DNA of 39,801 nucleotides from Candidatus Nitrosopumilus sp. Its GTDB lineage: Archaea > Thermoproteota > Nitrososphaeria > Nitrososphaerales > Nitrosopumilaceae. The notes below the pieces were generated by a model. It searched no databases. It had not been told where the DNA came from and worked only from the letters and a program-made list of their open reading frames with translations. The DNA lies in NCBI GenBank assembly GCA_029864235.1, contig JAOTTW010000007.1:1-39801 (forward strand), written 5' to 3'. Position numbers and translations under genes: made by a program. How positions within the stretch are numbered: position 1 is the stretch's first letter; each line of letters begins with the position of its first letter. Below are positions 2,502 through 39,801 of the stretch, piece after piece.

Positions 2502-4040
2502 TCATCTATCTATCACAAATGTTCTTTCCACTGTTGGGGATTCTGTTATTTTGTGGATAAGCATGTCTGATCTCTTACCTATGCCTATCGGGGATTGATT
2601 AGTAAGAATGTATTTTACTCTATCAAGTTTATGTGATTTTTCAGCAAATATTGTAAATAGTAGCTCTCCTTTTTCTACATGATCTCCAATTTTTTTATTA
2701 AAAACAATTCCAGCACCTTTATCTTTTGGAGCGCCAGCTGCACGTCCAATGTCAACAATAATTCTATTTTCCATCCATAGAACTTGTCCTGATTTTTCTG
2801 AACGGATAAACAACGTATGGTTTCCGATTTTAATATCTTCTGGAAGAACGGATGAATTTCCTCCTTGTGTCTTGATTATGTCACGCATTTTTTTTTCTGC
2901 CTTTCCAGATTCAAGAATTTTTTTTGCAAGTAAATAACCGTCTTTTTTGCCCAACAATTCAAACATACTTCCAGCTATGTTACACGTCTTGTCGATAAGA
3001 TCAGGTACTTGTTTTTGATTCATTAATACCTCAAGTGCTTCTTTTGCTTCAAGTGCAGGACCAATACTGTTTCCTATTGGTTGCTCACCAAAAGTCACTA
3101 TACAGTGTGTATGAATTCTCAACCTACGCCCAAGCTCTATAATGTCTCTTGCCAGAAGATCTGCTTCTCCAGTTGTTTTCATTTTTGCCCCCCTTCCAGT
3201 CGGAATGTCAACTACAAGATGGGTTGCGCCAACTGCCTTCTTTTTACTCATGATGGACGGTAAAAGTAATGGATCAATATGAAGTGAGAATTCAGTTTTT
3301 ACAAAAATTTCATCAGCTGGTGCCAATTCAATAGCACCGCCCCAAACAATACATCCATTTGCTTTTTTGAGTATTTGTAACATCTTGTTTGCAGTAAATT
3401 CAACAGGCATCAAGACTTCTGCACGATCTGCAGTTCCTGCAACAGATGTGATTGCCCTTGAAGATGTTTTTGGAATGATAAATCCTTCTGATGCAATTAT
3501 AGGAACAACTAGTAATGTAGTTTTGTCTCCAGGAACACCCCCTATACTATGTTTATCAACAATAATTTTTTTATCAATACAAAGTGTTTTACCAGTATCC
3601 ACCATTGAACGTGAAAGACTTGTTGCCTCATCCAAATCTATTTTGTCAATATGTAAAGCAGTTACAAATGCAGAAATTTCATTTTCATTAAGATTTCCAT
3701 CGACCAAATCACGTACAATTTCATTTATCTCTGGGTACAACAACTTTTTTCCAGAAAGTTTGTTTCGAATAAATTGAAGTGATTTTGGAAACGGTGCAAT
3801 ATCTACAGTTACTTTGGAATTTTGTGTTAAGGAAAGTATTTTTCTAACTTCTTCGGTTACTCCTAGAAAACCCTTTTCGATGGTAGCAGAGATGTTAACT
3901 ATTGAAGTAATCTTCTTTTTTGATTTAACAGTTACACGTTCAGACGCAGTAATGTTTAGATCATCAGCATCTTTATCATTTAAAAATACAACAGGTTTAC
4001 CCCCTGAGTCAATATTTAGAATCTTTACTTTTAACAGCAA
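2502..4040 (-). CDS. deoA: AMP phosphorylase (archaeal thymidine-phosphorylase family)
   Basis: This enzyme phosphorolyses NMPs to a free base and ribose 1,5-bisphosphate. At 512 residues it has the archaeal architecture: an extra N-terminal beta domain of about 85 residues, a helical dimerisation region with the LVDGNLNENEISAFVTALH signature, the phosphate-binding KHSIGGVPGDKT motif near residue 160, and a C-terminal all-beta domain. In other archaea it feeds ribose-1,5-bisphosphate isomerase and form III RuBisCO. Neither is in this window, and ammonia-oxidising archaea generally lack RuBisCO, so the physiological sink is unclear. The family is clear. AMP preference over thymidine is inferred from the archaeal N-terminal domain. 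Confidence 0.9.
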   Translation of the reverse strand: MLLKVKILNIDSGGKPVVFLNDKDADDLNITASERVTVKSKKKITSIVNISATIEKGFLGVTEEVRKILSLTQNSKVTVDIAPFPKSLQFIRNKLSGKKLLYPEINEIVRDLVDGNLNENEISAFVTALHIDKIDLDEATSLSRSMVDTGKTLCIDKKIIVDKHSIGGVPGDKTTLLVVPIIASEGFIIPKTSSRAITSVAGTADRAEVLMPVEFTANKMLQILKKANGCIVWGGAIELAPADEIFVKTEFSLHIDPLLLPSIMSKKKAVGATHLVVDIPTGRGAKMKTTGEADLLARDIIELGRRLRIHTHCIVTFGEQPIGNSIGPALEAKEALEVLMNQKQVPDLIDKTCNIAGSMFELLGKKDGYLLAKKILESGKAEKKMRDIIKTQGGNSSVLPEDIKIGNHTLFIRSEKSGQVLWMENRIIVDIGRAAGAPKDKGAGIVFNKKIGDHVEKGELLFTIFAEKSHKLDRVKYILTNQSPIGIGKRSDMLIHKITESPTVERTFVIDR

Positions 4041-38659: not shown

Positions 38660-39661
38660 TTGATTTACAGTTCGTTTAACAATCCAGGGTTAGTCAAGGT
38701 ATTATATTTTTTAAAATCACACAATACGGAATACCTGTCAGGACAAGATTTGAGTGATGTTCTAAAAATAAGTAGAGTTGCAGTTTGGAAGCATATAAAA
38801 AAAATTAAAGAATTAGGTTACAAAATTGAATCAAAACAAAAACTAGGTTATAGATTGGAATCAAATTCAGAGAAATTACTTCCATGGGAAATTACAGAGG
38901 GTTCAAAAACTAAGATAATAGGAAAACAGGCATATTATTTTGATTCAATTGATTCAACCCAAAACCAGGCATTAACGATGGCTTTTGATAAAGAAAACAA
39001 CGGCGCTGTAATTGTAGCAGAAAAACAAACAAGTGGAAAGGGAAGGTTAGGAAGAAAATGGGAATCTCCAAAAGGAGGAATATGGCTTTCAATAATTTTA
39101 CAACCAAAGTTTGACATTGGGGTAACTACATTATTTCCATTGGCAGCATCATTGGCATTGTCAAATGCAATTGAGAAGACATCAAAAATCAAATCAGAAT
39201 TAAAATGGCCAAACGACATTACAATTAAAGGAAAAAAGGTGGCAGGAATTCTGGTTGATGTTTCACTTGAATCAAATAAAATTGAGAATTTAGTTTTAGG
39301 AGTGGGAGTAAATTTTGATGTAAATACTAAACAAATTGAAAAATCATTAAAAGGAACACCTAATTTTTATGGAGTTGCATCTCTTTCTCAACAAAATAAA
39401 AACACTAGACCAATAGAACTAGTTAATTCTTTTTTAAGTGAGTTAGAGAAGATCTATTTTATGCTAAATTCTGGAGATGTCAAAAAAATAATTGAGGAGT
39501 GGACAAAAAAATCATCAACAATAGGCAAAGAAATAGAGATGAATACAGAGAAAGAAAAAATCAAGGGGAAAGCAATAGGAATTGATGATGACGGAGCATT
39601 GATCATCTTAGAAGATAAAAAGAAGAAAAGAATCATTGCAGGAGATATTATCCATATCTAA
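38660..39661 (+). CDS. birA: biotin-[acyl-CoA carboxylase] ligase with N-terminal HTH (BirA)
   Basis: Attaches biotin to the carboxyl carrier protein of acetyl-CoA/propionyl-CoA carboxylase, needed for carbon fixation in this lineage. The 333 residues begin at TTG 38660. The N-terminal HTH (residues 15-60) has SGQDLSDVLKISRVAVWKHI, as in bifunctional BirA that represses biotin genes. The catalytic domain carries the biotinyl-5'-AMP loop GKGRLGRKWESPKGGIWLS near residue 128 and KWPNDITIKGKKVAGILVD near 176. The C-terminal SH3-like domain ends with IIAGDIIHI. No biotin synthesis genes are in the window. Confidence 0.95.
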   Translation: MIYSSFNNPGLVKVLYFLKSHNTEYLSGQDLSDVLKISRVAVWKHIKKIKELGYKIESKQKLGYRLESNSEKLLPWEITEGSKTKIIGKQAYYFDSIDSTQNQALTMAFDKENNGAVIVAEKQTSGKGRLGRKWESPKGGIWLSIILQPKFDIGVTTLFPLAASLALSNAIEKTSKIKSELKWPNDITIKGKKVAGILVDVSLESNKIENLVLGVGVNFDVNTKQIEKSLKGTPNFYGVASLSQQNKNTRPIELVNSFLSELEKIYFMLNSGDVKKIIEEWTKKSSTIGKEIEMNTEKEKIKGKAIGIDDDGALIILEDKKKKRIIAGDIIHI

Positions 39662-39676
39662 GAATATGAAATAGGA

Positions 39677-39801
39677 TTACTTTTTTGAGTATTTTGGTTT
39701 AGATTTTGGTTTAGATTTTGGTTTAGATTTTGGTTTAGATTTTGGTTTAGATTTTGGTTTAGATTTTGGTTTAGATTTTGGTTTAGATTTTGGTTTAGAT
39801 T
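39677..39801 (-). CDS. C-terminal part of a KPKS-repeat protein, cut by the window end
   Basis: On the minus strand the reading frame enters from the right edge and repeats K-P-K-S at least nine times. It then ends with KPKYSKK and TAA at 39677-39679. The underlying DNA repeat is a near-identical 12-bp unit. Lys/Pro-rich tails of this kind occur in histone H1-like and other nucleic-acid-binding proteins. The N-terminal part lies outside the window, so no function can be given. The other frames of the repeat either contain a stop in every unit or give unlikely sequence. It faces birA tail to tail. Confidence 0.75.
   Translation of the reverse strand, partial: SKPKSKPKSKPKSKPKSKPKSKPKSKPKSKPKSKPKYSKK
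39691..39801. repeat. tandem 12-bp repeat
   Basis: The unit ATTTTGGTTTAG is repeated at least nine times with no variation seen, up to the end of the window. On the minus strand each unit encodes KPKS. The perfect identity suggests recent expansion by slippage. The true number of copies cannot be determined here. Confidence 0.95.

Follow-up and report, generated by a model that had tools for sequence, protein, structure and literature searches.

AlgP (AlgR3), a histone H1-like protein of Pseudomonas aeruginosa with a KPAA-repeat C-terminal domain, and the Pseudomonas phasin PhaF are the described proteins closest to the one reported here. Both have KPAA tails that bind DNA or are believed to do so, and in AlgP the repeat number varies (PMC9239181). 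HBHA of Mycobacterium joins a coiled coil to polyanion-binding, lysine-rich repeats at its C-terminus (PMC3293801). For the archaea, a transcription unit of its own is one trait of known nucleoid-associated proteins (NAPs), and histones make up under 0.06% of the proteome of Nitrosopumilus maritimus (PMC7613761). Putative PHA and polyphosphate granules have been described in the same species (PMC11082331). With this low histone investment and these putative granules, a nucleoid and a granule role are both conceivable for a basic-tailed protein of this group.

Here we report such a protein from Candidatus Nitrosopumilus sp., a member of a family of ammonia-oxidising archaea. The window, i.e., the whole stretch of DNA analysed (39,801 bp), is the entire contig C58 of a 115-contig, 1.68-Mb draft genome. 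The array at its right end therefore runs off the contig, and not merely off the window.

The array and the gene it belongs to

TRF detected this array with a period of 12, 100% matches and a score of 222, against 57 for the second-best array in the window (Table 1). Translated on the minus strand from position 39799, it reads SKPKSKPK...SKPKYSKK, followed by a stop codon at 39679-39677. The initial annotation had described base-identical 12-bp units coding for Lys-Pro-Lys-Ser and a proper stop after KPKYSKK, and both were recovered by TRF and translation.

Table 1 Coordinates of the array, its gene and the convergent birA.
Feature	Position	Strand	Remarks
12-bp tandem array	39691..39801	-	9.25 identical units, codes (SKPK)n, codons TCT AAA CCA AAA
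3' end of coiled-coil/KPKS-tail gene	39677..39801	-	array, then KPKYSKK and stop
birA-like biotin protein ligase	38660..39661	+	HTH_11, BPL_LplA_LipB and BPL_C domains; convergent neighbour
5' part of gene	L012:436-2 (contig C110)	-	outside the window

The only other place in the source genome where the array was found is the left end of contig C110 (4,915 bp), which opens with 127 bp of this array. Its minus strand encodes, from an ATG, ~103 residues (MNELGIGDMVYSLRKKIQKVQ...), predicted as helices; (KPKS)n follows and continues past the contig end. The N-terminal residues read from C110 are MNELGIGDMVYSLRKKIQ..., with the tail after them. The start and the N-terminal domain, expected to the right of the window, were thus both located, together with tail sequence. 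The C110 part is very probably the second half of the C58 gene. We infer the joint rather than read it, and it is strongly supported because both halves share the array and because synteny with birA is kept across the family. This is an ordinary gene, split by the assembly, and the number of units in the source genome (~10.6) is a lower bound. That the array is a real C-terminus was borne out, the whole gene lying at the same place beside birA in more than 120 relatives.

As to the possibility of an assembly artefact, also raised from the array, the assembly does break at the array, making the count a lower bound, but the array as such is not an artefact. Arrays of a similar sort were present in relatives, including genomes assembled into one contig (e.g., L117 from G084), showing that such arrays exist biologically. 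In another genome, the contig L007 (Thaumarchaeota NP142) also starts inside the same array, adjoining birA, L063 stops where the tail starts, and L059 has an N gap within the repeats. Together with the ends of C58 and C110, these cases show that the gene can break assemblies. In practical terms, draft assemblies of Nitrosopumilaceae genomes can break at the KPKS-tail gene.

Gene neighbourhood

In the window, 15 bp separate the birA stop, ending at 39661, from the stop of the array frame, beginning at 39677. We compared 126 distinct loci of Nitrosopumilaceae. Wherever the sequence reached birA (124 loci), the gene was convergent with it, and the stop-to-stop gaps were mostly 3-25 bp. The upstream neighbour was divergent in 116 of 123 loci, which, with the convergent birA, indicates that the gene probably forms its own transcription unit. 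The source genome is an exception: a universal stress protein encoded on the gene's own strand stands upstream, at a distance of 350 bp. In most loci (97 of 123, e.g., L093), this position is taken by a divergently encoded TPR protein that apparently has a signal peptide.

C110 also carries phaE and the start of phaC, encoding a class III PHA synthase (L012:4039-4915), ~3.5 kb from the gene, and in many relatives phaC is found a few kb from it. Beside phaE/phaC, C110 encodes a TFB (2526-3482) as well as a DUF6659 protein.

Protein family and predicted structure

The N-terminal 103 residues were used as query against 250 genomes of the organism's family, the Nitrosopumilaceae. Matches were found in 143 genomes, nearly always single-copy, and the gene was present in 96 of the 131 near-complete ones. 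A profile (A1) search of 400 genomes of the class gave three weak matches beyond the family, taken as chance coiled-coil similarity. Within the genomes searched, the gene is restricted to Nitrosopumilaceae. Several genera of the family were without the gene altogether, so that it is no essential chromatin component. Genus g15 (37 genomes searched) kept phaC, and the gene was nearly absent throughout. In L075, G114 (G114:C2:87760-88046), L114 and L094, there were internal stops or frame breaks, or the basic tail was nearly lost (QKE), reflecting either decay in a few lineages or sequencing errors.

Neither this protein nor other members reached the cut-off of any Pfam or NCBIfam family or matched a known DNA-binding domain or family; the matches obtained were weak and mostly to coiled coils. 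In the literature, we found no paper naming the family, or KPKS together with Nitrosopumilus. The family occurs in most near-complete Nitrosopumilaceae genomes, yet is without a curated name or model in Pfam/NCBIfam. Widespread but uncharacterised, this archaeal protein carries a basic tail prone to slippage.

The proteins are ~100-190 aa long. Their conserved N-terminal part, ~100 residues, is predicted to form two helices and is followed by a low-complexity tail. An AlphaFold2 prediction for the L011 homologue (mean pLDDT 78, pTM 0.57, alignment of three sequences) places the helices at residues 2-32 and 45-103 and leaves the tail unstructured. The remaining four models were less confident (mean pLDDT 60-65). 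Profile matches in the PDB were mostly generic coiled coils, and a structure search of the PDB with the L011 model gave nothing at E 0.001 or better. The best TM-score among the PDB overlays listed was to the helical hairpin of ESCRT-III/Snf7 (CdvB) (5fd9, TM 0.64, Foldseek E 0.43). A relationship to ESCRT-III, suggested by this one overlay, was rejected: the profile matched the four CdvB-like proteins of the genome with a probability of 0.6%, and Pfam Snf7 was unmatched. We treated the overlay as chance.

Basic tails and repeated birth of arrays

Tail composition was examined in 123 complete homologues, one of which, that of L059, was set aside for its N gap ahead of the count. The tails are made of K, S, P, T and R, with D or E almost absent: they had 43% K, 7% R and 1.2% D + E, and the cores 11.5% K + R and 16.4% D + E. 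The tail was net positive in 120 of the 123 homologues, the charge being lost in three. Many tails had no array and were short (median 16 residues), which makes a long array dispensable. What selection apparently maintains is a basic, disordered tail whose length changes by slippage; the property kept is the basic charge, rather than the sequence. Judged from sequence, binding of DNA or RNA by the tail is plausible and would be consistent with this conservation of charge.

Near-perfect tandem arrays were found in 19 of the 123 homologues, with periods of 6, 9, 12, 15, 45 and 54 bp. The periods of these high-identity arrays were multiples of three in all 19, in a scan that, as opposed to an earlier one, was not filtered by period. 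Among the units were SKPK, STPK, KPKT, NPKS, SK, KSQ, KTQSK and a 15-residue unit, and in a GC-rich genome (locus L120) an 18-residue unit of A/P/K/G/R. SKPK was spelled in five synonymous ways (TCTAAACCAAAA, TCAAAGCCAAAA, TCAAAACCAAAG, TCTAAACCCAAA and TCCAAACCTAAA), with one spelling per locus. Species differed in repeat number (~3 to 14), the units of any one locus being identical; at this level, the result agrees with the recent slippage and variable tail length that the first reading of the array had suggested.

In a tree of birA and the N-terminal core (a quick search over two proteins, with 40 of 119 inner branches weak), the source genome grouped with four genus members without a near-perfect array (support 99), and array presence needed at least 8 changes. 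A single clade, or common ancestry, of all KPKS arrays was rejected (p-AU 2e-69), and the codon spellings differed. Together, tree and spellings indicate that arrays were repeatedly born and homogenised. KPKS is one favoured array form, arisen in different lineages. With basic in-frame arrays born repeatedly and independently at one place, the gene offers a clean natural example of slippage in which charge, rather than sequence, is selected.

KPKS runs were also seen elsewhere. On a Nitrosarchaeum contig, a frame that runs off the end (L009:1591-1899) codes for another protein, which apparently has a membrane segment and carries KPKSKPKSKPKSKQK near the N-terminus, and a Lokiarchaeota GTPase-like protein (L004) has a KPKS run as well, showing that the motif arises in unrelated proteins.

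Proposed function and alternatives

Our preferred reading, held with moderate confidence, places the array at the 3' end of a stand-alone Nitrosopumilaceae gene, nearly always present once, whose product would oligomerise through its helices and bind a polyanion, most likely DNA, through its lysine tail. The architecture is predicted, and we infer oligomerisation and polyanion binding by the tail. The helices would oligomerise as a coiled coil, and the disordered tail would bind DNA, or possibly RNA or polyphosphate. The protein may be nucleoid-associated or, by analogy with AlgP/PhaF, tether granules to the nucleoid. Slippage of the array would change the length of the tail and thereby its avidity, with selection keeping the charge.

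More tentatively, the protein could be an unrecognised H1-like nucleoid protein, its grip on DNA tuned by in-frame slippage, that evolved separately from AlgP/PhaF and from eukaryotic H1, in cells with little investment in histones; we regard this as possible but doubtful. As in known NAPs, the protein is small and probably encoded in a single-gene unit, with neighbours mostly divergent upstream and convergent downstream. Should it bind DNA, the protein would be a chromatin candidate in very abundant archaea.

A granule protein, with helices on PHA (or polyphosphate, possibly only polyphosphate) granules and a basic tail tying these to the nucleoid, as proposed for PhaF/AlgP, seems unlikely. 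The nearby phaE and phaC on C110 and in many relatives point in this direction, as do the putative granules of N. maritimus (PMC11082331) and the architecture shared with AlgP/PhaF (PMC9239181). However, closeness to phaC is by itself weak evidence, given that the whole neighbourhood is conserved as a block, and no match to phasin or AlgP families was found. A hand comparison of two genome lists, covering the 250 genomes, gave 128 with both genes, 15 with the gene and without phaC, 73 with phaC and without the gene, and 34 with neither. Seven genomes at least 90% complete had the gene without phaC, and g15 shows the opposite pattern. These counts indicate that PHA is not an obligatory partner. 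A PHA phasin strictly coupled to PHA, an idea prompted by phaEC on C110, was therefore dropped.

A tail without any specific partner is a rather improbable reading; in it, a disordered, basic C-terminal end would be tolerated and in-frame slippage there would be nearly neutral. In its favour, unit and length vary without restriction, the charge is gone from three homologues, and only multiples of three occur as periods, as slippage would produce in any tail that is coding. Neutral drift would, however, leave unexpected both the net positive charge of 120 of 123 tails and the near-absence of D/E, which together extend to the GC-rich lineage of L120. Binding of RNA, ribosomes or an acidic partner protein instead of DNA appears improbable to a similar degree: disordered tails rich in lysine often serve in this way and charge alone cannot distinguish targets, but the gene has no operon link to translation genes. 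A non-coding satellite or regulatory element at two contig ends, or an assembly artefact, is highly improbable and already contradicted. In its favour, C58 and C110 both end in the array, which is T-rich on the birA strand; against it are a frame that stays open from start codon through core to stop codon, conserved synteny at 124 loci, periods that are always multiples of three, and arrays in one-contig genomes.

Comparison with known systems

The preferred reading, of oligomerising helices with a polyanion-binding tail, has its counterparts in three described proteins. The likeness to HBHA is one of architecture only, in the coiled coil and the C-terminal lysine-rich repeats; HBHA is a cell-wall-associated adhesin, whereas export evidence was absent for the archaeal protein. 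PhaF has a helical oligomerising N-terminus and a KPAA-type DNA-binding tail, and phaC is near the gene here. In contrast to PhaF, the archaeal protein had no phasin domain match, and its presence was not tied to that of phaC across the 250 genomes. The phasin/PHA granule models of Pfam and NCBIfam gave no match for it, and PHA_granule_1 matched, weakly, the neighbouring PhaE only.

AlgP differs in that the archaeal protein is without family match, its tail is often short and without repeats, and S/T take the place of A within the repeats of AT-rich genomes. The link to polyphosphate is AlgP's, and for the archaeal protein would be conjecture. Both have a small helical N-terminus and a disordered, C-terminal tail of K/P tandem repeats, the AlgP-type combination that we found here, and both have a variable number of units, which in the archaeal protein varies between species, from ~3 to 14 (PMC9239181 for AlgP).
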